A stretch of DNA of 33,239 nucleotides. It comes from Secundilactobacillus hailunensis (lineage in GTDB: Bacteria; Bacillota; Bacilli; Lactobacillales; Lactobacillaceae). The notes below the pieces were generated by a model, which saw only the letters and a program-made list of their open reading frames with translations, did no database searches and was not told the origin of the DNA. Each line of letters starts with the position of its first letter. Position 1 is the stretch's first letter. Below, piece by piece: positions 7,885-18,799 of the stretch. The stretch is from positions 1 through 33,239 of the forward strand of contig NZ_BJDO01000026.1 in the NCBI RefSeq assembly GCF_005405185.1, given 5' to 3'. The translations under genes and the position numbers were made by a program.

Positions 7885-7951
7885 TAATCGATAACTTAAG
7901 CTTATCACTTACCGTCCTCTATTGTCGTCACGTTACTCGTTCAATTTACAC

Positions 7952-7996
7952 CAAAAACGGATTGCTGAAATTAAAAAAATCAGCAATCCATTTTTG
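7952..7996. terminator. Terminator closing the Wadjet operon
   Basis: GGATTGCTGA (7959-7968) pairs with TCAGCAATCC (7980-7989), flanked by A and T runs, so it can act in both directions. It lies 60 nt after the jetD stop codon on the minus strand. The remaining spacer (7821-7951) holds only the operon promoter to its left. Confidence 0.8.
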
Positions 7997-8055: not shown

Positions 8056-8859
8056 CTACTTTAACCACTGCGCGATAAGCGTTTCGTATTCTTTAACCAG
8101 CTGTTCCTGCTCCACAAATCGTCCAAATACCTGAATCGCATCCAGCTGGTCTTTCAGCTGCGGTGTCTGGATAGTTAAGTTTTCTGTCCGTTTAGCATCC
8201 GTTTTCCCTTTTAGTGATAACCATTTCGTCACGTTCATGGTACTTTGAATCGCAGTAAACGTCTCGATTGAAGTATGCTTCAGCTTTCGGTAAAGGGTAT
8301 CTGCAATCTGAATCCCCTTACTGTCAAGATCACCGAGATACGTAAGTTGAACACCCCGGGCTTCTAATCGCTGAACCACCGTGATATAGGTTGAATTAAA
8401 ATCATTGCCGCTCTGATTAATTAACGGCCACTCAGGGTTGCGTTGGTGCAAAAGGACAAAGATTCCGTTGTTCTCTACGATCACTGCTTGTCGGTTTTTT
8501 AATGGGTAAGCCAGCATTTCGGGAACCTGCCACGGATTGAGGGTTAATGGCTGAGGGATGTCTGTCTGAAAAACATTGGCACAGGTAAACGCCATCCCAA
8601 TTAACTTGGCTGAGAGCTGATCGATTTTTTCATGCTCAAAACAGTGCCGCATGATCCATTGATAATAACTAAACAGTTCCGGATCCTCACTGGCATTATT
8701 TAAACTATGGGCGGTCAGACCAAGATCTACGGCTTGTTGTCCCAATGGCGGTAAAACTTTTCCTGCCGCTAGCTGGTCAAACAACGGGGTTAAGGCAGCT
8801 GCGTTCGCTGGCGCTTTTCGTTTTGTTTGTTCCTCATACATATTTATATAATCAACCAT
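8056..8859 (-). CDS. jetD: Wadjet JetD-like Toprim nuclease subunit
   Basis: This is the probable DNA-cleaving subunit of a Wadjet/MksBEFG-like plasmid defence complex (MksG homologue). The C-terminal Toprim pattern is clear: catalytic glutamate E129 in AVIVENNGIF, then a glycine-bearing segment NQSGNDFN, then D177 and D179 in YLGDLDSKGIQIAD. This resembles the DUF2220/DUF2399 Toprim families and the Toprim of topoisomerase VI and Spo11. At 267 residues it is clearly shorter than the roughly 380-400 usual for JetD, so the N-terminal arm that contacts the SMC complex must be reduced. It starts 10 nt after the jetC stop and is the last gene before the terminator. The assignment relies on Toprim residues plus operon position; the subtype is not certain. 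Confidence 0.82.
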   Translation of the reverse strand: MVDYINMYEEQTKRKAPANAAALTPLFDQLAAGKVLPPLGQQAVDLGLTAHSLNNASEDPELFSYYQWIMRHCFEHEKIDQLSAKLIGMAFTCANVFQTDIPQPLTLNPWQVPEMLAYPLKNRQAVIVENNGIFVLLHQRNPEWPLINQSGNDFNSTYITVVQRLEARGVQLTYLGDLDSKGIQIADTLYRKLKHTSIETFTAIQSTMNVTKWLSLKGKTDAKRTENLTIQTPQLKDQLDAIQVFGRFVEQEQLVKEYETLIAQWLK

Positions 8860-8869
8860 CGATGTCCCG

Positions 8870-11800
8870 TTATCTCCAATTCATTGTCTGCTGTACTTGG
8901 TTAGTGTGGAAACGCCCATCGTTTTGCTGCTTGGGCGCAATGACGTCATAAACCACGTTTTCAACACCATCAGCCAAGATCTTATTCTGCGCACCGCTGG
9001 GCATGGTCGCAATGAAATTAAAGCCAAAATTAGCAATCGTTCTAGCAAACGACTTGGCCGTATCCGGATCCAGTTTATCAGCGAATTCATCAAACATCAC
9101 TAGGTATGGCGCATCGTCTTTTTTAGCCCGTTCTAACACCATTTTAGGAACTAATAGTAGCGGCAATACCATGGCTTGAGCTTTTTCGGCACCAGAACCA
9201 CCGGACTGGACAAATTTATCATCGACCTCTTCAAACTCATCATCGTTATTTTGCCGCCGCTTGATCAGCACCCGAAAGTTTGACCATTGCCGTGTATCCA
9301 ACAGTGATCTCGCTGCATCCATGAACGCGGTATCGTCATCCGCAATTTCCGTATTATTCGCCAAACGATTCAGCCGATTCTCAACTTCTTGTAATAAAGC
9401 TGGCCGCTCCTGCAAGCGTGCATTTCGTGCTTCATCAATCACTGCCTGATCAACCGTGTCAGGCGTTAACGTCACTTTCAGTTTAATACTCTGGCTGTCT
9501 AGGCCACCTTCCGTTAACATCCGGTTATACGTATCGATAACATCATATTGCGCGCTGATCAACGTGACTGCGGCAGTCACATAAGCGTGATAAGCCACGT
9601 CATTCCCCATTTTCATCTCTGCCAGTGCTCGCGTCACATTGGCTTCGTCGTTGACCATCAGCGAAAGAGCTTGTTGTAAGTCAAATGCCGGTAGGTTAAC
9701 GGCACCGTCTTGGATGACTGACTGCTGTCGCATCTGCTCGGAAATAGCCGTGTAACCTCGCTCCTCAAATAAATCATCAAGCGCATTACGATCAACCCGG
9801 TCACCATCATGCCGGTGAATAAGCCGCCTAACTTGGGTACTAAAATCGATAATATTGCTATTTCTGATCTGACTGCGATGACTTTTTTCAAAGTCTAAGA
9901 CATCATCAATACTGTTCAAATGAACGTCATCCGGATAATATGGTGCCAGTTGTTTGACCGCAGTCAAAATAGCTTGTTCCTGATCTGTCAGTTCATCATG
10001 CAGCGTCTTCAAACGGCCTTCTTTTTCGCCGATTCGGGCCTCATTACCACTGATTTCGCTCGTAAACTGCGCCCGTTTTTGATTATACTGCTCAACTTCG
10101 CTGTTGATCTGCTTAAGCTGGTCCGGCAAAGTTTCATCGATTTGCTGGTGAGCTAATTTTTCTGAGAGCTCCTGAATCTCTCGTTTAACTTGTTCAGCAT
10201 CAAATTCCAAGTCCATCGTGGTCTGCAAGCTTTCCAGATTAGTTTGCACCAGCTGTCTTTGGTCGTGTTTAACTTTTAACTCGGCTTGGGATTGACTAAG
10301 CTGATTTAACGCGTCTATCAACCTATCGCTTAACGTTTTCAAGCTCGTCATTAATGTCTGATCTTTTAACAGTTGCTCTAAATCAGGATGTTCATTGATT
10401 AAAGTTTGCATTTGAGCGACTAACTGCTGATACTGCGCATCCATTTGCGCAGCACCGGCCTCATGGATGCGTTGGTTATCACTGTGCAGCCGTTCACGGG
10501 TCCGCCCCATCAAGGCGCCTGTAGTATCCTGATCGATTGCGGTTCCCATATTCGTTTGTATGCCTTGAACGATTGCCACATCTTTACTGGTTCTGTTACC
10601 AGCATCTTCAAGGCCGTGATAACGGGTAATTAGTTGCTGATAGGCTTGTAAGTAGTCTTTCAAATTCGAACTGATTTCTTGTAGATCAACTTGAGTAATA
10701 GTCTTAGCTAGGCCAATTAAGTGCGCACTTTTAGCATTCAGGGCCGCTTGTTGCGGCACTAGCTGTTCTGCTTTAATCTGCTCAACCTGATCATTAGCGC
10801 TATCGATATCCGCTTGCAGCTGGGCAAGGTTTTGCTGATACTGCTCAACTTGCTGACTTTGCTGCTCATTACGCGCTAACGTTGCTTGCAGAGAAGTCAC
10901 TCGCTGCTGATATTGTTCCCGCAATTCAGCTGCCGCTTGTTGCTGGGCAGCCTTCTCTCGCAACGCCTTGAGCGTTTCTTCAGCACTTGCTAGAAGCTGA
11001 CTAACAGTGTCATTTTCCTTTTTGATAGCCTTCGTTCGAATCACCAGCTGATCACGCTCATCACTAATTTCCTCAAATTCGGTATGAGCCTGAGTATAAG
11101 GACCTAATAACTTACTTTTTAGCTGATTCAAATTCCGCCAGAAGATTTCCTGCCGCATCCGTTCCAACCTTTTTTGCGCGGTATCGATCCGCTTTAGAAC
11201 CCCATTTAACCGATTCACTTCACGCTGACTATTAGCGACCCGTTGGATCACCTGGCCATCAATACCTTCTTGAGCGGTCTTCAGTGCCTCTCTAATTGGC
11301 GTAAAGCGCGCATTACCAGCCGTTAAAATGGGTGACGCTAATAACCGGTATACTTTTGTCAGCTCGGCTAGTGCATTGCCACTGGTAAATCCATAAACAT
11401 GTTCGGCAACGTATTCACGATAATCATCCGCACTTCGAAAAATAACGAGTTGCTTGCCAAGGGATTCATTAGCTGCCTTAAACGCTTCCCTGTCTAGTCC
11501 CTTACCATCCGCATCCGTCGTTACGATTTCCAAATCAGGTGCTAGTTGTTCTCGAATCGCAACAAACCACCAGGTTAGCTTACGCTTATCACCAACGGCG
11601 CGATGCGCACCGATCCCCAAAATAACTTGGCGACTGCTGGATTTTAACGTCATGTAACTGTAGCCGGTACGTACTTTCATCGCACCGTCGCCCCAACTGA
11701 GCAACATACTATCAAAGTTTCTTGTATCTCGTGCACTATTCCGGGCAGTTGCTGATTGATCTAATTTTTCGGTCCCCTTCGCCGAATTAAACGACGGTGT

Positions 11801-11986
11801 AGCGATTGAACCATCGATCAGCATTGGGAAAAAGCAGTTCGCTAGTGTCGTTTTGCCGACCCCATTATCACCAGTTAACGTCAGGTTACCCTTTTCGGAA
11901 GCGTCAACATCTAACTTGATATATTTATTAAATTGGCGGAGATGAAAAGTCACTGGCACGAGGTGTTCTTGTAAAGTCATTGTCAT
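8870..11986 (-). CDS. jetC: Wadjet JetC-like SMC ATPase (MukB/MksB-like)
   Basis: This 1038-residue SMC-family motor is expected to extrude DNA loops. It has an N-terminal ATPase lobe with Walker A GDNGVGKTT (39-47), then long glutamine- and leucine-rich coiled coils (about 260-420 and 560-700) around a small middle region that may be the hinge. The C-terminal lobe has signature SGGSGAEKAQ (928-937) and Walker B LVMFDEFADKLD with D966/E967. The D-loop and H-loop regions follow. SGGSG-type signatures and an N-terminal FNKY strand fit the MukB/JetC branch rather than SbcC. It is shorter than MukB and the type III Wadjet ATPase (about 1350), so its arms are short. Its ATG overlaps the jetB stop (TAATG), implying coupled translation. 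Confidence 0.92.
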   Translation of the reverse strand: MTMTLQEHLVPVTFHLRQFNKYIKLDVDASEKGNLTLTGDNGVGKTTLANCFFPMLIDGSIATPSFNSAKGTEKLDQSATARNSARDTRNFDSMLLSWGDGAMKVRTGYSYMTLKSSSRQVILGIGAHRAVGDKRKLTWWFVAIREQLAPDLEIVTTDADGKGLDREAFKAANESLGKQLVIFRSADDYREYVAEHVYGFTSGNALAELTKVYRLLASPILTAGNARFTPIREALKTAQEGIDGQVIQRVANSQREVNRLNGVLKRIDTAQKRLERMRQEIFWRNLNQLKSKLLGPYTQAHTEFEEISDERDQLVIRTKAIKKENDTVSQLLASAEETLKALREKAAQQQAAAELREQYQQRVTSLQATLARNEQQSQQVEQYQQNLAQLQADIDSANDQVEQIKAEQLVPQQAALNAKSAHLIGLAKTITQVDLQEISSNLKDYLQAYQQLITRYHGLEDAGNRTSKDVAIVQGIQTNMGTAIDQDTTGALMGRTRERLHSDNQRIHEAGAAQMDAQYQQLVAQMQTLINEHPDLEQLLKDQTLMTSLKTLSDRLIDALNQLSQSQAELKVKHDQRQLVQTNLESLQTTMDLEFDAEQVKREIQELSEKLAHQQIDETLPDQLKQINSEVEQYNQKRAQFTSEISGNEARIGEKEGRLKTLHDELTDQEQAILTAVKQLAPYYPDDVHLNSIDDVLDFEKSHRSQIRNSNIIDFSTQVRRLIHRHDGDRVDRNALDDLFEERGYTAISEQMRQQSVIQDGAVNLPAFDLQQALSLMVNDEANVTRALAEMKMGNDVAYHAYVTAAVTLISAQYDVIDTYNRMLTEGGLDSQSIKLKVTLTPDTVDQAVIDEARNARLQERPALLQEVENRLNRLANNTEIADDDTAFMDAARSLLDTRQWSNFRVLIKRRQNNDDEFEEVDDKFVQSGGSGAEKAQAMVLPLLLVPKMVLERAKKDDAPYLVMFDEFADKLDPDTAKSFARTIANFGFNFIATMPSGAQNKILADGVENVVYDVIAPKQQNDGRFHTNQVQQTMNWR

Positions 11987-12990
11987 TAGTCGTCCTCTCT
12001 AGGCGTACGTACTTGAAAGCGGTCTGCAAGCGGTGTTGGTAACACGAATCCATCTGTCTGATAGGCTAATGCATTATCCCAAAGCATTTCCTTGACCGCA
12101 CTGGGGCTTACCGTGTTATCTGGATATAATTGACGGGCAATTAACTGGATTCGTTTAGTAAGCTGGTCAGCCTCAAACCCCTCACCCAGCGAATGCGCAA
12201 CGGCAATCGCAATCATAAACGGCCGGGCCGTACTCAATTGGCGATTACGGTCAAGCAATAGCGCGTAGTCATCGCCGCACTCAAGGTCAAAGCGACCAAG
12301 GACTTGCCATTGCGCCGCGATTTCTGATTTATTGGAAACTAATTTGGCCCACAAACTCGGTGTGGTCGTTGGACTTAAAAAGCGCTTCTTCAAGAGTGCG
12401 CGATTGACTTGCTGCTGATCAGTATATGCCGTCACATCATCCGGCCTCATCAAACTATTGACGATAGCCTGGGCGACCAACACAAAATCGGGACTGATAT
12501 CCCAATACTCATTAACTTCCACTTCTTCATCCGTAAACGCACTTTCTGGTAGATCCGGCTTAAAGAGTTTAAAGCGCTCAACAAATAGTTGTGTAATGTA
12601 GCGAAAAATCACTTTTTCACTTAAGTTAGCCGCTTCTGAATAAACTTGATTGATAATCATCTTAGTCTCAACCACTTGGCCAGTCTGGTTATCTTGAATG
12701 TCTGGTAAGTTGATGACCGCCTTCAACGTGGCCAGCAGGACATGAACTTCGTCCGGATTTAAACTGCCTGGTCCAAATAATAAGAGTAAATTAGCTTGAT
12801 AATATTCCGGCACGACTCCCAACAAATTGCGAAAGTAAGCACTGATCCGCTGCTGATGCGACCGCTGCTTGACACTATTAATCGCATCGATCTGAGTCGT
12901 TGCCATCCGTGGGGTAATGGCCGTTGTAAAGACCTGGTGATCAAGTAATTGATTGATCACATAACGCTCCGTTGCTTGCAGTTCAATCAT
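11986..12990 (-). CDS. jetB: Wadjet JetB-like (MukE/KITE) subunit
   Basis: This 334-residue subunit lies between the kleisin and SMC genes, the place of JetB/MukE-type winged-helix proteins that clamp the kleisin. The sequence is helical, with a C-terminal region (DYALLLDRNRQL, then VSPSAVKEMLWDNALAYQ and GFVLPTPLADRF) that reads like a winged helix with a hydrophobic wing and recalls DUF2398 proteins. At 334 residues it is longer than the roughly 200 of type I JetB and close to DUF2398. No catalytic motif is seen. ATGA overlap with jetA and TAATG overlap with jetC indicate a fixed stoichiometry. Identity rests mainly on position; the domain call is tentative. Confidence 0.75.
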   Translation of the reverse strand: MIELQATERYVINQLLDHQVFTTAITPRMATTQIDAINSVKQRSHQQRISAYFRNLLGVVPEYYQANLLLLFGPGSLNPDEVHVLLATLKAVINLPDIQDNQTGQVVETKMIINQVYSEAANLSEKVIFRYITQLFVERFKLFKPDLPESAFTDEEVEVNEYWDISPDFVLVAQAIVNSLMRPDDVTAYTDQQQVNRALLKKRFLSPTTTPSLWAKLVSNKSEIAAQWQVLGRFDLECGDDYALLLDRNRQLSTARPFMIAIAVAHSLGEGFEADQLTKRIQLIARQLYPDNTVSPSAVKEMLWDNALAYQTDGFVLPTPLADRFQVRTPREDD

Positions 12991-14501
12991 TTTTGTTCAC
13001 CTCGTTGTTCAAATTCAACGCTAAAACCACTGGGGAGATACACACTAAAGCGTTCGTTGCGGCAATGCAACTGGATCTGCCCGGTATGAGGTAAGGCTTT
13101 AGCATTAGTGATAGCCCGTCCAAACGCGGAAAAGCCACTGTATCGGTCATAATTTATCGCACCATATAACCGAGCAACTTCATCACGGGCAATTTGAGTC
13201 TGAAAGTTGAGATCACCATCCACCACGACCGTGTCAGCATCGCGCATAACTAGTGCCTGAAACTCCTTTAAGCCGGCTTCTGCATCCCGTTCAATCTCAG
13301 TATCTGGAGCCACCGTTGGATTATCATCTTCAGTGGCTACCGCTCGCTGTCGGTCAACCGCCGTATACTGAACGGGGCCCATTGTTGTGGCATCGAGTAG
13401 ATCAGTTGGGTCTTCAATGTCGCGGTCTTTTGCGAGATGTTGGGGCAACGCTTCAGGAACCAATAATTGCTGATAGCGTTTCATTAACTGGTCAATTTTC
13501 CCAGTCAGGTCTTTAATATCGATGGTCTGCTTATTAATATGGTCGAATTCCCGGCTCAATAAACTAATGGCTCGTAAAATCGTCTCAAACAGCAGGTAAA
13601 TTGAGTCCATGCTGCCATCAATGGCACTGGAACTGGCTTCAAAACTAAGACTCATGGCGACCATTTGGCGGCTAACATACGCAGTTGTTTGCCGGTAGCG
13701 ATGAATCATGCTGACCTTATCATCAATGGCGTGATTCGCATCTAGATCATCCGTCCCCTGCTGACTACGTGCTACCCGTTCAGCAAACGCCGTTGAATGC
13801 GCGAGTTCGTGAATGATGTGGCCTTGATCTAACAGTGTATTAAAAGCGGGCACCGCCTTATCTTTCAGCATCTTTTGCAGGTGCTGGGCGGCTTGGCTGC
13901 CATGATTAAAGGCGAGATCATTTGCCAAAGTTTCCAGATCTTCATCCAACTTGTGCATCCCTTTAGTCACATCATCATAGGCGGTGATCATATTATGGAA
14001 GTTATTATACAATTCCGTACTGATCGCATCCGCACTGTCATCAGCCAAAATGGTAATTAATCGCTTAAAATCATTGATTCGATTGGTATTGGAAACCACG
14101 GTATTTTCCGCATCGACCACCTTTTGCATCATTTTAAGGTACTCAATGCCGCTGCTCGTAATCTGATAAATATCGGATTGCCGGGTGTGATAAGTCCCGC
14201 TTTGCATCCGCTCCCGGATCTTTCGTCGAGATTTTTCAACTAATCCAGCTTGGTCAGCTAGCTCTGTTAAAACACTGGTCATGACTGCATCGGTTATAGG
14301 TGCCTCGTCATTTTCAGCGTCTAAATAAGCGACGTTATATTGGTTGATCAAAAATCGTCTCGTGCGTGGTTGTTCGTTTCCCACACTGCCCTGATAAAGA
14401 ATTGTTAGAACGTCCCACCCAGCTAACGGATGGTCACGACTGGAGCCTAAATTGGTTGCCAGCAAAAGGCGTTTAAGTGCTGGCGCTATTTGGATAGTAA
14501 T
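12987..14501 (-). CDS. jetA: Wadjet JetA-like kleisin (MukF-like), probable ATT start
   Basis: This is the kleisin subunit bridging the SMC heads. From the preferred start it has 504 residues. It shows an N-terminal winged-helix region (WDVLTILYQ through SDIYQITSSGIEYLKMM), long helices in the middle (about 120-350) as in MukF, an acidic low-complexity linker around 370-420, and a C-terminal winged-helix-like part. The first usual start codon is TTG at 14465, which has no ribosome binding site. A perfect AGGAGG lies at 14511-14516, 9 nt before an in-frame ATT at 14501 with no stop between, adding a 12-residue helix MTIQIAPALKRL. ATT starts are rare (known in infC) and would limit expression. 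The gene heads the four-gene operon and overlaps jetB by 4 nt. The exact Wadjet subtype remains open. Confidence 0.78.
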   Translation of the reverse strand: MTIQIAPALKRLLLATNLGSSRDHPLAGWDVLTILYQGSVGNEQPRTRRFLINQYNVAYLDAENDEAPITDAVMTSVLTELADQAGLVEKSRRKIRERMQSGTYHTRQSDIYQITSSGIEYLKMMQKVVDAENTVVSNTNRINDFKRLITILADDSADAISTELYNNFHNMITAYDDVTKGMHKLDEDLETLANDLAFNHGSQAAQHLQKMLKDKAVPAFNTLLDQGHIIHELAHSTAFAERVARSQQGTDDLDANHAIDDKVSMIHRYRQTTAYVSRQMVAMSLSFEASSSAIDGSMDSIYLLFETILRAISLLSREFDHINKQTIDIKDLTGKIDQLMKRYQQLLVPEALPQHLAKDRDIEDPTDLLDATTMGPVQYTAVDRQRAVATEDDNPTVAPDTEIERDAEAGLKEFQALVMRDADTVVVDGDLNFQTQIARDEVARLYGAINYDRYSGFSAFGRAITNAKALPHTGQIQLHCRNERFSVYLPSGFSVEFEQRGEQK

Positions 14502-14535
14502 ATGCTGATTCCTCCTATACAGATTATTAATTAGA

Positions 14536-14635: not shown

Positions 14636-15484
14636 TTACTTGATTTCGCGTTTCAAATACTCTTCAAAAGTGGTTGGTTCGCGTCCAAGCAACGTCTTAA
14701 GCACAAATGGATTACCATCCAAGCCCCACTTAGAATAAGTATCAGACAAATGCTTAAATGCTTGACGCATATAAAGATCATTAATGTGATTCTCATCCAA
14801 GAACTTTTCGAGGTCGATATGAGTGGCAACAGCGTGTTCGCCAGTCATCTTGTTATAAGTATCAACCAAGTCTTGAGGGGTGTACGTCTTCTTAGTGCCG
14901 ACTAATTCGAAAGTTGCCTTGTTGTAGGTATCTGGGTCCTTAGCAACCTTAGCGGCAACTTCACCGACGTCCAAAGGATCAACGTAGCATAATTTGCCAT
15001 CAGAAGCATAGAAGTTTTCGTACTTACCAGTATCGTGCACCCGTTTAGGATCAAAGTTATGCATATAGTGCATTGGCTGCAAGATGGTGTATGGCAATTG
15101 CGTTGACATACCAGCATAGATCAAGTGCTCTTCAGTATCACGCTTTTCAACGTGTTGCAAGAGTGTGGTCAAGATTGGGTGAGTCACAGAAATGAAGATG
15201 AATTGTGAAACGCCGTTCTTAATGCTTAAATCGATCATTGTCTTACCGATCAAACCTTCCTCTGCGGAAAACAGCGGTGGAATGTAGGCAATCTTATCAC
15301 TGGCTTTAGTAATTTCATCAATTACCGTAATATCGGTTAAATCACCGACGAAAGCCTGCTTGATACCTGGTAAATCTTTAACTGCTGGGTTAATGTCAGC
15401 TGCACCGACTTCGAAGCCAGCATCCACTAATGCTTTAACAACGTGGCTACCAGCATGTCCAGCAGCTGAAGTAACTGTAATCAT
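14636..15484 (-). CDS. NmrA-like NAD(P)-binding protein
   Basis: This 282-residue atypical short-chain dehydrogenase is of the NmrA type. The N-terminal Rossmann fold has the glycine motif TSAAGHAGSHVV (about residues 5-16) and an acidic D35 after strand 2. Then come VGDLTD, YIPP, and FIFISVTHP, the region where classical SDRs carry the active serine. The YxxxK pair is not conserved, so it may act as a redox sensor or as an NAD(P)H:quinone-type reductase like QorB. It is the last of three leftward genes and is a paralogue of the operon's first gene: both contain TLLQH, WVDPLDV/YVDPLDV and a YxKWG stretch near the C-terminus. AAGGAG precedes the ATG. Confidence 0.85.
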   Translation of the reverse strand: MITVTSAAGHAGSHVVKALVDAGFEVGAADINPAVKDLPGIKQAFVGDLTDITVIDEITKASDKIAYIPPLFSAEEGLIGKTMIDLSIKNGVSQFIFISVTHPILTTLLQHVEKRDTEEHLIYAGMSTQLPYTILQPMHYMHNFDPKRVHDTGKYENFYASDGKLCYVDPLDVGEVAAKVAKDPDTYNKATFELVGTKKTYTPQDLVDTYNKMTGEHAVATHIDLEKFLDENHINDLYMRQAFKHLSDTYSKWGLDGNPFVLKTLLGREPTTFEEYLKREIK

Positions 15485-15535
15485 AAAATAGTGCTCCTTT
15501 CAAATCATCTGATCATGCAAATCAGGATAGTTAAA

Positions 15536-16291
15536 CTACCACGGTACGATACCGGCATCTTCTGTGAAGGTCCCGTTAGCATCGTTCTTAGGGTCTAAGG
15601 CAAGTGTAATGGCACGGTGAGCACCACTTTCAACTGGCTTAGCACCATTCTTTTCAAATAATTCCTTGTCGACCAAATCAGTAGCGGTCATACCAGGGTT
15701 AACTGAGTTGGCTGTAACGTTGATCTTAGCGTCTCTGAATTCCTTACTAAAGGCAACGGTCATGGCGTTCAAAGCTGTCTTAGAAGCTTGGTATGGGAAG
15801 GAAATAATGTGTGAGAACATGGACTTTGGATCTGTAGCTAAGCCCAATGAACCCATATCACTAGTAATAGTGATGATCTTACCATATGAAGCCTTCTTCA
15901 ATAGCGGAACTGCAGCTCTCGTCATTGCATAGGTTCCAAAGAAGTTAGTGTCAAAGGTCTTACGTAACTCTTCGACAGTTGATTTCGTTGGTAAAGCATC
16001 TTGATGTCCTGGGATACCAGCATTATTAATTAAAATATTGAGGTAGCCGAATTTATCATTAACGGTTTTAATCGCATCATCAATGTTTTGTTGATCGGTA
16101 ATGTCACAGTGTAACAAAGCAACGTCTAATCCTTGATCTTGTAATTCTTTAACGGCTTTTTGACCAAGTTCCATATCGTAAGCACCGATGAAGACGAATT
16201 GACCATGTTGTGCTAATGTCTTAGCTTCAACAAAACCCATACCTCTTTCGGCACCAGTGATCAACGTCACAATTTTTTTACTGTCAGCCAT
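15536..16291 (-). CDS. Classical SDR oxidoreductase
   Basis: This 251-residue NAD(P)-dependent short-chain dehydrogenase/reductase has all classical marks: cofactor motif TGAERGMG (12-19), NNAG at 89-92, active serine S144 in ITITSDMGS, Y167 and K171 in YQASK, and PGMTATD after strand 6. The middle position between two NmrA-like genes and control by the divergent TetR suggest a detoxifying carbonyl reductase. The substrate is not visible. AAGGAG lies 8-12 nt before the ATG. Confidence 0.9.
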   Translation of the reverse strand: MADSKKIVTLITGAERGMGFVEAKTLAQHGQFVFIGAYDMELGQKAVKELQDQGLDVALLHCDITDQQNIDDAIKTVNDKFGYLNILINNAGIPGHQDALPTKSTVEELRKTFDTNFFGTYAMTRAAVPLLKKASYGKIITITSDMGSLGLATDPKSMFSHIISFPYQASKTALNAMTVAFSKEFRDAKINVTANSVNPGMTATDLVDKELFEKNGAKPVESGAHRAITLALDPKNDANGTFTEDAGIVPW

Positions 16292-16327
16292 TATAAAACA
16301 CTCCTTTTCTTATAAGCATTTAATAAC

Positions 16328-16343
16328 TATTTCACATGAAACA
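16328..16343. promoter_or_regulatory. parS-like palindrome
   Basis: TATTTCACATGAAACA matches 14 of 16 positions of parS. It fills the gap immediately downstream of the first NmrA gene and ends at its stop codon. Confidence 0.35.
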
Positions 16344-17270
16344 TTAAAGCCATTCTGAACTATCTGCTGATTTTTCGGTTTCAGCTACTGTACAAGTAGG
16401 CTTGATGCCGTTAGCAACTAATTGACGGGCACACCAGTTAGCAACACTGCGAGGCTTGTGATCCAGTAATTCGATCAATTGCTTGTTGTTACCAGCCCAG
16501 CCCCACTTGTTGTAAGTTTTACGTAAGGCATAGAAGGTTTCAGTTGCGAAACTGTCGCTACCTGCAAAGTAATCTGGCCAATATTCAACTAACTTATCTT
16601 CAGGTACGGAAATTGGTGTAATTTCCTTACCAGAAACTTTGCTCATGACAGTGGCAACGTCTCGTGGTGTCATGGATTCGTTACTTGCAGTGTAGATCGC
16701 GTACTTGTAGCCATCTTCAGTCAACAGTTTAGCGGCACAATCGGCAACGTCCAATGGGTCGACCCATGAGACCAGCTTGTCGATGTCACACATACTTGGA
16801 TATTCACCCATATCGTAGAACATCTTCATGAAGATGTTTTGATGATACGTTGAAGGCCGAATGACACTCCAGTCTAAGCCGCTTTCAAAACCACGATAAA
16901 GTAGGTATTGTTCATCCTTAGCTTTCATCCGGTGTTGCAGCAGCGTGCTCATGTTCGGGTACATGCAAGAGAGGTAAACATACTTGCTGACCTTAGCATC
17001 GATGGCTGCATCGATTGCCATACGGCCCATCTTAGCTTCTTGGTAAGTAAACTGCGGTGGAATGTAAAGCACCCGATCGACGCCCTTCATTGCTTCAGCG
17101 AGGAATTTTGGATCACGGCTATCACCAACAAGGGTTTCTTTAACTCCTTGTTGTTCAAATTTCTTAATGTCTGGGTTCATGTCAATGGCACGAATATCAA
17201 ACCCTTTTTTGGCAAGGTAAGGGACGATCTGACGACCAACTTTACCATATGCGCAGGTAACTAGTAACAT
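16344..17270 (-). CDS. NmrA-like NAD(P)-binding protein
   Basis: This 308-residue protein is the first gene of the leftward three-gene operon. The Rossmann start VTCAYGKVGRQIV has a slightly changed glycine motif. Then come VGDSRD, VLYIPPQFT, YVYLSCMYP and SVIRPSTYHQN, the core of NmrA-type proteins. The C-terminal 25 residues, after NWCARQLV, form an extra tail with cysteines not present in its paralogue at the operon's end. No YxxxK active pair is seen. It is probably a reductase or redox sensor. AAAGGAGG lies just upstream of the ATG, and a well-formed promoter is 27 nt further away, in the region shared with the tetR-type gene. Confidence 0.85.
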   Translation of the reverse strand: MLLVTCAYGKVGRQIVPYLAKKGFDIRAIDMNPDIKKFEQQGVKETLVGDSRDPKFLAEAMKGVDRVLYIPPQFTYQEAKMGRMAIDAAIDAKVSKYVYLSCMYPNMSTLLQHRMKAKDEQYLLYRGFESGLDWSVIRPSTYHQNIFMKMFYDMGEYPSMCDIDKLVSWVDPLDVADCAAKLLTEDGYKYAIYTASNESMTPRDVATVMSKVSGKEITPISVPEDKLVEYWPDYFAGSDSFATETFYALRKTYNKWGWAGNNKQLIELLDHKPRSVANWCARQLVANGIKPTCTVAETEKSADSSEWL

Positions 17271-17296
17271 ATTTCACAACCTCCTTTAATGACCAT

Positions 17297-17325
17297 AGTG
17301 TATCCCCTTTCAACAAACTCGTCAA
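17297..17325 (-). promoter_or_regulatory. Promoter of the NmrA-SDR-NmrA operon
   Basis: On the minus strand TTGACG (17320-17325) and TACACT (17297-17302) are separated by 17 nt. An inverted repeat AAACTC/GAGTTT (17315-17320 and 17338-17343) spans the -35 region and the divergent promoter, and is a candidate operator for the adjacent TetR protein. Confidence 0.72.
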
Positions 17326-17362
17326 GTATTACTTTATGAGTTTTCTTTAAATTATTTTCGTG

Positions 17363-17368
17363 TATAAT
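17363..17368 (+). promoter_or_regulatory. -10 element of the TetR-type gene
   Basis: A perfect TATAAT preceded directly by TG lies 28 nt before the ATG. The -35 is weak. The promoter faces away from the NmrA promoter about 40 nt to the left, the usual layout of a self-controlled TetR gene. Confidence 0.6.
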
Positions 17369-17395
17369 AGTTTTGAACAGAGGGGGAAGATTATT

Positions 17396-18025
17396 ATGAC
17401 GGGGAAACAATCACAACGGCAGGATCAATATAATCGCGGTAAACAGCTATTTATCGATACTGCTAAGCACCTTTTTAAAACCAAAGGGTATGATAAAACT
17501 AAAGTCAGTGATATCGTTAATGCCAGTGGTCGAAATGTGAGCACGCTCTATCACTATTTCCCAGCAGGTAAGAAAGATATCGTTAAAATACTTCTAATTA
17601 CGGATATTAAAGAAGAATTTGACAAATTAGCCACCTTAATGGCGCAAGAAAGTGACCGTTCGCTCATTGATGCACTACATTTATTTTTTCATCAGTTCGT
17701 GGCCATTTTTTATCACAACTGGTACTTAATGTCGATTATGCTTTACTATAAAGATGATTTTGAGGCTGAAGTGACCCCCATTACGCGCGAAGGGACCGAT
17801 CATATGCGCAAACTGCTGGCCACCTTCTTGCAAAAACGAGTTGACAACAGAGAGTTGTATATCACTGATTGTAACGTGGCTGCTAAATTATTCTTTGCGC
17901 CCGGGATGGAAGCCATCATCGTTAATTTTTCTGAACCTGAAAAAGACGTCTTTGATACTACTGAAATCGACCAGCTGATTGCTATTTGGCAACGAGAAAC
18001 GGTTTTCTTTGATCAAGATAAATAG
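17396..18025 (+). CDS. TetR/AcrR family transcriptional regulator
   Basis: This repressor has 209 residues from the preferred start. The N-terminal helix-turn-helix is typical: AKHLFKTKGYDKTKVSDIV, NASGRNVSTLYHYFPAGKKDI, with YHYF in the recognition helix region. The rest is the variable ligand-binding and dimerisation domain. A GTG start at 17360 overlaps the -10 box and is rejected; the ATG at 17396 has AGGGGG 8-10 nt upstream. The gene is divergent from the NmrA-SDR-NmrA operon, with a 125-nt shared control region, so it most likely represses that operon and responds to a substrate of its enzymes. Ligand unknown. Confidence 0.9.
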   Translation: MTGKQSQRQDQYNRGKQLFIDTAKHLFKTKGYDKTKVSDIVNASGRNVSTLYHYFPAGKKDIVKILLITDIKEEFDKLATLMAQESDRSLIDALHLFFHQFVAIFYHNWYLMSIMLYYKDDFEAEVTPITREGTDHMRKLLATFLQKRVDNRELYITDCNVAAKLFFAPGMEAIIVNFSEPEKDVFDTTEIDQLIAIWQRETVFFDQDK

Positions 18026-18038
18026 AATCGGAGGCAAT

Positions 18039-18085
18039 AAAAATAGTCTGAAACTACCATCCTTCAGTAGTTTCAGACTATTTTT
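18039..18085. terminator. Bidirectional terminator between convergent genes
   Basis: A perfect 18-bp stem (18039-18056 with 18068-18085) has an 11-nt loop and A/T tails on both sides. It serves the TetR gene and the leftward NAD(P)-binding gene. Confidence 0.88.
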
Positions 18086-18098
18086 GTGAACCAAATCT

Positions 18099-18734
18099 TT
18101 AAGCATCTACCACACTAAAACGTTGTCTAATGTACTTAGAGTCAGTCATTTCCTGTACGATTGCTGCAGCAAAGTTACCGATAGTTGTTGTTTCCTTACC
18201 GTCTTTGTTTACCATTGGGTGGTCGCCACCAATTTTAAAGTTGGTTTTGGGTCCTTCAATTAACTCATTTTGAGGAGTAGCAGCGATCCAATCGACGTTA
18301 TTGATCCACTTTAAGTATTCAAATTCATGACTTTGCTGAACTGGTGCGTCGATCCAAGGTTGACCCGCGTACTTTTTCAACACCGTATCGATCATTGGTT
18401 GGCCATCGTCATCTAATAAAGTGCTGGCACCGATGATAAAGACTAATTTCGTAGCCGTATTTTCACGGAACATGGTGATTAAATTAGTCGCCACATCGAT
18501 ATGCTGATAAGCCTTTGGTGACGCAAAAGCATCCACAACATAATCAAATCCCTTTAAATCTGAATAGGTCAATGCTAAGGCATCCTTTTCCAGAATTTGG
18601 GCATCTGAACCAAATAACTTCTGCCCCTTTTTAGCATCGCGGACGATTGCCGTGACCTCAATATTCTGCGCAGCTGCTTCTTTGTAAATCGCTTGACCAA
18701 CGTGTCCTGTTGCCCCAATAATACCGACTTTCAT
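18099..18734 (-). CDS. NAD(P)H-binding protein (YwnB/YesF-like SDR)
   Basis: This 211-residue atypical SDR has the N-terminal motif MKVGIIGATGHVGQAI (glycine motif GATGHVG), followed by VRDAKKG, D74 in FDYVVDAF, and the GAS segment after strand 5. This is the NAD(P)-binding family often annotated as NAD-dependent epimerase or flavin reductase-like. Catalytic YxxxK is absent. The ATG five codons upstream is rejected because GGGGGG lies 8 nt before the ATG at 18734. It has its own promoter and shares a terminator with the TetR gene. The role is unknown, but another NmrA/SDR-type protein beside the TetR operon suggests related redox work. Confidence 0.83.
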   Translation of the reverse strand: MKVGIIGATGHVGQAIYKEAAAQNIEVTAIVRDAKKGQKLFGSDAQILEKDALALTYSDLKGFDYVVDAFASPKAYQHIDVATNLITMFRENTATKLVFIIGASTLLDDDGQPMIDTVLKKYAGQPWIDAPVQQSHEFEYLKWINNVDWIAATPQNELIEGPKTNFKIGGDHPMVNKDGKETTTIGNFAAAIVQEMTDSKYIRQRFSVVDA

Positions 18735-18799
18735 AATAAATCCCCCCATAATAAAGTTTAAATTTAGTTAATTCCAATTAGGTTGCCGACCACTGATAT

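Follow-up and report, generated by a model that had tools for sequence, protein, structure and literature searches.

A compact Wadjet-like operon with a short Toprim nuclease in Secundilactobacillus hailunensis and other Lactobacillaceae

The window analysed here, a stretch of 33,239 nucleotides of Secundilactobacillus hailunensis DNA (contig NZ_BJDO01000026.1, positions 1 to 33,239), carries on its minus strand, from 14501 to 8056, four genes in the order jetA-jetB-jetC-jetD. This compact operon is a so far unclassified relative of the Wadjet defence systems and is carried by many lactic acid bacteria. It probably encodes a compact SMC-kleisin-KITE complex (SMC, structural maintenance of chromosomes) together with a trimmed Toprim nuclease, and in our judgement is a type-level variant of Wadjet, found so far only in Lactobacillaceae. 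The observations behind this reading are the recurrence of the four genes, the intact ATPase and Toprim residues, and the fold matches of JetD and JetC. By analogy with described Wadjet complexes, the products may extrude DNA loops, sense circles and cleave them, and the operon may restrict plasmids.

An open reading frame (ORF) analysis bore out the gene positions, order, overlaps and sizes reported in a first-pass annotation of the sequence, the JetA end at 14501 being an ATT codon. jetA and jetB overlap by 4 nt, jetB and jetC overlap by 1 nt, and 10 nt separate jetC from jetD. The genes thus form a co-directional, closely coupled set that ends in an SMC ATPase and a Toprim nuclease, as in a Wadjet operon, with close coupling in intact relatives too, and the annotation's proposal of a Wadjet-like gene set is supported. 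The features are as follows.

12987..14501, minus strand: jetA, putative kleisin gene; 504 residues from the ATT at 14501 or 492 from the TTG at 14465; no Jet or kleisin family match.
14511..14516, minus strand: Shine-Dalgarno sequence AGGAGG, 9 nt upstream of the jetA ATT codon.
11986..12990, minus strand: jetB, weakly KITE/MukE-like; 334 residues; the window's own JetB has no family match.
8870..11986, minus strand: jetC, SMC ATPase with type II affinity; 1038 residues; family, profile, tree and fold matches.
10439..10540, minus strand: apex of the coiled-coil hairpin predicted for JetC (residues 483-516); I484, D503, N504 and H508 are invariant.
8056..8859, minus strand: jetD, compact Toprim nuclease; 267 residues; family and fold matches.
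8092..8520, minus strand: Toprim/DUF2399 domain of JetD (residues 114-256), from Pfam, profile and conserved residues.

The operon recurs within the family. With the window JetD as a single query, 6 of 99 other genomes were matched, five of them nearly end to end. A JetD profile matched 61 of 397 Lactobacillaceae genomes, 53 of them at an E-value of 1e-85 or better, which we take as compact JetD, while the remaining eight matches were canonical JetD or fragments. The genomes with compact JetD span 11 of the 40 Lactobacillaceae genera. A further scan of genome contigs gave at least nine loci in Schleiferilactobacillus, Lacticaseibacillus, Companilactobacillus, Lapidilactobacillus, Levilactobacillus and one Lactobacillus sp., at least six of which coincide with loci in our set of 38 relatives; a scan of genome contigs with a single JetC sequence led nowhere. 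Among these 38 loci (window not counted), 27 passed a filter for intactness of all four genes, and 11 failed, owing to stops, to genes that are split or missing, or to sequence distance from the query (L009, L011, L012, L053, L054, L062, L064, L068, L069, L079 and L084). Because the four genes recur in the same order in relatives of several genera, the arrangement goes beyond chance. Six loci (L056, L060, L062, L068, L069 and L080) lie on contigs of 2.67-3.01 Mb and are therefore chromosomal. Distinct proteins that span 80% or more of the query have median sizes of 499 residues for JetA, 337 for JetB, 1041 for JetC and 269 for JetD; the filter retained one split JetC (835 residues) and one fused JetB (512 residues).

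Outside Lactobacillaceae no compact full-length JetD was seen in 299 genomes of the class and 299 of the phylum, each sample including the window's own genome. The JetD profile matched 37 and 30 other genomes in these samples, respectively, every match starting at profile position 90 or later, and these matches sit in open frames of 358-572 residues with one exception (G800, 130 residues). Among the genomes searched, then, the variant is seen only in Lactobacillaceae, in agreement with the family-specific variant that the annotation had suggested. Within the window's own genus, L011 and L012 form a more divergent sub-lineage (JetA 19% and JetD 35-37% identical to the window), and the JetC tree places the window closest to L067, from another genus. 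This sequence pattern suggests that the operon has been transferred within Lactobacillaceae. Two decayed loci, L079 and L084, have jetD with no detected jetA-C beside it; in L069, jetC is missing and the jetB and jetD matches lie in one frame of 518 codons (9607-11163), a natural in-frame fusion.

JetD contains a Toprim domain. Residues E129, G151, D177 and D179 and the motif E250-Q251-E252 are invariant in all 34 rows of an alignment of the window with 33 of 40 distinct JetD proteins. JetD exceeds the Pfam cut-offs for DUF2399 (41.2 bits, cut-off 23.4) and JetD_C (29.9, cut-off 22), and the PADLOC model JetD2 matches at E 2.5e-15 over the Toprim part. An AlphaFold2 model (mean predicted local distance difference test score, pLDDT, 93.1) has the Toprim fold, and its best matches in the Protein Data Bank (PDB) are the Corynebacterium glutamicum nuclease 8b7f (E 7.7e-6), the topoisomerase VI-A entry 9o8p (2.0e-5) and JetD 7til (1.4e-4). 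The reduction of JetD noted in the annotation is real: the clade median of 269 residues compares with mostly 405-487 in type II and 423-487 in type I. Truncation or frameshift of the window gene was rejected, as relatives have JetD of equal size. In a permissive alignment the N-terminal 120 residues map onto type II columns from 146 (residue 126 of L013) and H51 aligns with an invariant histidine of type II JetD; taken alone, this N-terminal stretch is not significant (E 0.046 over 30 columns; reversed control 0.33). JetD likely retains the CAP domain, and we read it as CAP plus Toprim with about 125-145 N-terminal residues gone.

JetC is an SMC-type ATPase with intact catalytic motifs. In an alignment of the window with 30 of 34 distinct JetC proteins, the Walker A residues G39, G44, K45 and T46 and the Walker B residues D966 and E967 are conserved in 31/31 rows, and the signature SGGSG (928-932) is nearly so (S928 30/31, G929 29/31, G930 31/31, S931 30/31, G932 31/31). 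The motifs that the annotation had listed for JetC, as well as E129, D177 and D179 of JetD, are therefore present and conserved in relatives. The Pfam SbcC Walker B model gives 36.4 bits (cut-off 27), and the PADLOC model JetC2 matches at E 7.6e-34, with its best stretch N-terminal, against E 0.046 for JetC3. A fold search of the PDB returned Wadjet-II 9qe0 first (E 1.4e-29), then MukB 9gm6 (2.4e-23), followed by the JetABC entries 9qxx and E. coli 8q72, both near 1e-15. A Lamassu assignment was rejected, the LmuB models matching JetC at E 2.1e-5, far more weakly than JetC2. JetC as the housekeeping SMC was also rejected, the genome having a separate housekeeping SMC that scores 1073 bits.

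The relation to the known Wadjet types is best defined by JetC and JetD. Against the NCBIfam type II models (TIGR02677/02678/02680/02679), window JetC scores 100.6 with a cut-off of 462.85 and JetD 41 with a cut-off of 196, while JetA and JetB have no match, so that the operon falls outside type II by these models. All four proteins of a control type II operon of the class (L106) pass the same cut-offs. In a Lactobacillaceae type II control (L083), JetA and JetC pass and JetB (121.3 versus 124.65) and JetD (118.9 versus 196) miss, and the PADLOC type II models match all eight control proteins at 2.6e-109 or better. The NCBIfam cut-offs alone are thus strict, yet the window lies far below both controls in NCBIfam and PADLOC. 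The family-model searches gave no clear full-length match of all four proteins to one subtype.

Profile-profile comparison places the clade nearest type II for JetC (99.8%, E 8e-29) and for JetD (98.6%, E 5.6e-16, residues 91-260). The clade is not closest to type I, for which the values are 1.4e-7 (JetC) and 6.9e-5 (JetD). The type I versus type II comparison, used as a yardstick, gives 8.5e-25 and 6.4e-12; by this profile measure, with alignments of unequal depth, the clade appears about as distant from type II as type I is. The annotation's reading needs correction on this point: JetC and JetD have their affinity to type II rather than to a mixture of types I and III, albeit below the NCBIfam cut-offs and apart on the tree. 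A type I/III mosaic is likewise rejected by the profile comparison.

A tree of JetC heads was built from 474 columns and 48 rows (21 of 35 Lactobacillaceae JetC proteins, 17 of 24 type II candidates, 8 type I and 2 type III), broken or unclear type II candidate loci being excluded. It supports Lactobacillaceae at 95/88, type II at 99/99 and type I at 97/100; when the long-branched L012 is removed, the values are 97/94, 99/99 and 98/99. The best tree, midpoint rooted, joins types I and II (88/82). In the approximately unbiased (AU) test, neither a clade plus type II grouping (p 0.39) nor a clade plus type I grouping (p 0.069) is rejected. Type III JetC, represented by two long-branched rows only, sits on a far branch from the clade and indicates no type III affinity. 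The Lactobacillaceae JetC proteins thus appear as a group apart from type II, their branching order relative to type I being unsettled on this tree.

These comparisons bear on the possibility that the operon is merely a type II Wadjet that has diverged and, through genome streamlining, shed domains with its mechanism unchanged, which we consider rather unlikely. Such an origin would suit the A-B-C-D order shared with type II, the proximity of JetC and JetD to type II by profile (and of JetC by fold search) and the AU test, which leaves the clade plus type II grouping standing. Against it, type II rows branch without clade rows at 99/99, JetA carries no type II signal, and the profile distance between clade and type II is about that between types I and II. 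Furthermore, full-size type II is present in Lactobacillaceae too: L082 and L083 have type II JetC and JetD of full size, and L013 has the same gene order. In the class, type II operons have the order A-B-C-D; most of their JetA proteins are close to 500 residues long, JetB has 370-415, JetC 1358-1437 and JetD mostly 405-487 (type I and type II protein sizes being counted from the first start). Relative to Wadjet type II, including nvJET (PDB 9qe0), the clade has the same order and the closest JetC heads and JetD Toprim domains, but its JetC (about 1040 residues), JetD (269) and JetB (337) are all shorter, its four proteins are unmatched or under the NCBIfam cut-offs, and it occupies a separate branch.

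The feature that most sets JetC apart is the predicted end of its arms. In the AlphaFold2 model (mean pLDDT 80.8), the N-terminal head is followed by helices at 244-420 and 435-487, a turn at 488-493 and a region helical with short breaks at 494-683. The chain then forms a strand pair (757-766) in a joint-like region and a helix at 770-825. Known SMC hinges contain beta structure, and the model lists no strand from residue 184 to 756. By arithmetic on the model segments, a turn at about 490 gives balanced arms of 244 and 246 residues, whereas placing the tip at the break 421-434 gives unbalanced arms of 177 and 305. In family profiles of glycine plus proline content, a hinge-like stretch spans 168 columns in type II and 96 in type I, which has an additional rich stretch at 385-432; in the arms of clade JetC a single 24-column bin (481-504) exceeds 0.1. 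Conservation rises at the apex, where residues 461-540 reach 2.2-2.8 bits compared with 1.4-2.2 for the bins 301-460 and 541-680, and I484, D503, N504 and H508 are invariant in 31/31 JetC proteins. Because none of the 31 rows has a cysteine in residues 465-530, the apex is not a cysteine zinc hook. The model thus predicts short JetC arms that lack a hinge domain and meet in just a turn beside an invariant D-N...H motif.

Several results weigh against our reading, and they come from the structural scores, from JetA and JetB and from plasmid content. The JetC model has a predicted template modelling score (pTM) of 0.56 and was built from 31 rows, and its TM-score to 9qe0 is low (0.39). The JetD fold matches also have low TM-scores, about 0.45, with root mean square deviations of 13-16 Å over the whole chain, so that the placement of the JetD domains differs from that in the PDB matches. 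In a control on glycine plus proline content, the richest 60-residue windows reach 0.05-0.15 in the clade (n=31), 0.133-0.233 in type II (n=12) and 0.083-0.367 in type I (n=8); clade JetC is only partly separated from type II and overlaps type I. In the profile alignment of clade and type II JetC, gaps are scattered over arm and hinge with the hinge not cleanly excised, and no clear site for the missing residues emerged.

JetA is the least recognizable subunit. Twenty-eight rows (the window, L012 and 26 of 33 distinct JetA proteins, with unclear-start rows and near-copies excluded) gave no Jet, kleisin or MukF match at E 0.01 in PADLOC or Pfam; the scattered weak matches were to ZorA1 and PDC-S05 in PADLOC and to six unrelated Pfam families. 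Comparison of the clade JetA profile with that of type II gave a probability of 0.6%, that is, no similarity (clade versus type I, E 0.65). The MukF-like JetA of the annotation accordingly found no backing. Type I and type II JetA profiles also fail to detect each other (E 0.15); when even accepted JetA types go undetected in this way, the lack of profile similarity says little. The assignment of JetA as the kleisin rests on gene position.

Window JetB had no match in PADLOC or NCBIfam and none above a Pfam cut-off. In 33 rows (the window and 32 of 36 distinct JetB proteins), some match PADLOC JetB1 or JetB2, to which 11 of the 14 matching models belong; the best E-value is 4.5e-6, and no Jet model is matched by more than 5 of the 33. 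The profile comparison with type II JetB gives 34% and E 4.2e-4, with ten off-pair controls at E 0.13-0.59; clade versus type I gives E 0.042 and type I versus type II E 3e-6. These values point weakly to a KITE-like JetB. Sequence searches of the PDB with the JetA, JetB and JetD profiles led nowhere.

On the plasmid side, 16 of the 53 genomes with compact JetD have Rep_3 initiator genes, as do 112 of the 344 remaining genomes (odds ratio 0.90, p 0.87). The genome from which the window comes carries two Rep_3 genes on one contig (C52) despite an intact-looking operon. Genomes with an intact operon carry Rep_3 in 5 of 28 cases, compared with 4 of 11 with a filter-failing copy (p 0.24) and 112 of 344 without compact JetD (odds ratio 0.45, p 0.14). 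These statistics ignore kinship and plasmid size, and the association test neither supports nor refutes a role in plasmid restriction.

The absence of a plasmid association suits two other explanations. First, the products might form a chromosome-organising complex like MksBEF, with JetD in another role or none. MukBEF and several other members of the group are without JetD (PMC7617805), and no plasmid-gene association was found. However, JetD is present in the clade with active-site columns invariant in 34/34 rows, the genome has a housekeeping SMC, and the patchy spread (53 of 397 genomes) and decay (11 of 38 loci failing the filter, L011 and L012 partly by divergence) suit a defence gene better; we regard this explanation as improbable. 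Second, a defence system of the same build might have phage or some other DNA as its target instead of small plasmids. This would also agree with the missing plasmid association and with the resemblance of JetD to Toprim enzymes in general, but we give it little credence, as the described Wadjet-I and Wadjet-II complexes cut circular DNA (PMC10586767; PMC12647877). As for the operon itself being carried by a plasmid or phage, a search of 72,556 plasmid records with window JetC and JetD matched nothing at E 1e-5, and 73 candidates from a scan of viral contigs with two short patterns yielded none confirmed; these scans do not support a plasmid- or phage-borne element.

For a Wadjet variant, the most probable mechanism is the following. 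JetABC would load on DNA and extrude it with ATP. Extrusion would stall once a small circle had been fully reeled in. JetD would then cut, and would do so without the N-terminal domain found in its type I and type II counterparts. The JetC arms would be closed by a tight helical apex, predicted here in place of a hinge domain, and the complex should therefore not pass obstacles through a hinge channel. We tentatively go one step further, in a proposal that we hold well short of conviction: the clade may contain a natural hinge-less SMC loop extruder in which a conserved, cysteine-free helical apex (I484, D503, N504 and H508) replaces the hinge or zinc hook, possibly by serving as a polar or metal latch, and in which JetD is stripped to CAP and Toprim. 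It would then be a fourth Wadjet type and a near-minimal plasmid-cutting SMC machine.

Comparison with known systems shows which parts of this proposal have precedents. Wadjet type I (JetABCD/MksBEFG; 8b7f, 7til and 8q72) shares with the clade the four subunits, the JetD fold and a similarly short JetC (1101-1184 residues). It differs in having a JetB of 202-256 and a JetD of 423-487 residues as called, in its weaker profile match to the clade and in the E. coli JetC hinge with its channel (PMC12647877). Wadjet-I cuts circles once extrusion is complete, a Wadjet-II has a channel-less hinge and no obstacle bypass, and the longer Wadjet-II/III arms have been proposed, speculatively, to compensate for the missing channel (PMC12647877). 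MukB was the second-best fold match of clade JetC, but at 1482 residues it is larger than the roughly 1040 of the clade; MukBEF has no JetD nuclease, and it is through a hinge that MukB forms dimers (PMC7617805). In an SMC cluster from ocean Actinobacteria, heads and coiled coil are present and the hinge is predicted to be absent, as in the clade; the portion of that paper drawn on describes no operon, nuclease or Wadjet context (PMC12153180). An engineered E. coli Wadjet core whose JetC lacks the elbow-to-hinge segment cuts plasmid DNA without obstacle bypass; unlike the clade complex it is artificial and needs an added disulfide to hold together (PMC12647877).

The window jetA likely initiates at an AUU/AUC-type codon, as judged from the sequence. 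The first standard in-frame start is a TTG 12 codons downstream of the ATT at 14499-14501. AUU and AUC starts are known for infC. Located by ungapped extrapolation, which failed to place three of the 45 rows compared, the homologous first codon is ATC or ATT in 15 of the 45 (13 distinct); the window has ATT there, and 12 further distinct operons have ATC. Three of the distinct operons (window, L042 and L049, identical to L066) contain no ATG, GTG or TTG from the upstream stop as far as the twelfth jetA codon. L042 has AGGAGG 8 nt before its ATC, and L049/L066 have GAGG 8 nt before an ATC one codon upstream. Relatives carry ATG at the same position with a similar stretch after it (L055 and L061, compared with L043). 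In most other ATC or ATT cases an upstream or +4 alternative start remains.

Downstream of jetD lies one further feature.

7951..7989, minus strand: inverted repeat GGATTGCTGA...TCAGCAATCC followed by a T-run, terminator-like by eye.

This repeat is missing from the output of the terminator scan, whose loop limit is 8. That scan gave 6 sites versus 6.8 expected and a promoter scan 2 versus 12.2 expected, and neither led anywhere. Ten flanking ORFs, searched with Pfam only, revealed no adjoining defence island; they include GNAT, DUF1801, NmrA, short-chain dehydrogenase, ABC and TetR families, and one ORF had no match. The neighbours at 14636-18749 form a cluster of NmrA-like, short-chain dehydrogenase and TetR genes.

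Among the papers listed in literature searches, judged for this clade by title and opening lines of the abstract, none was seen to describe a fourth or new Wadjet type or this clade; the operon lists of PMC7617805, a Cell survey from 2025, may include it. Of 1344 lactic acid bacterial genomes, 9.38% carry Wadjet according to DefenseFinder, its kind not stated in the text drawn on (PMC13304284). Because PMC7617805 built Wadjet operon lists and DefenseFinder finds Wadjet in these bacteria, parts of the clade may already be listed. PADLOC-DB 2.0.0 and NCBIfam give window JetA and JetB no Jet name, so catalogues built on these libraries probably omit the system. A JetC allied to type II whose arms are short and apparently hinge-free would be a natural counter-case to the arm-compensation idea (PMC12647877), and, if the prediction is true, what hinge and arms each contribute to loop extrusion becomes directly testable. 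For the lactic acid bacteria themselves, the operon could be a hidden barrier to transformation.

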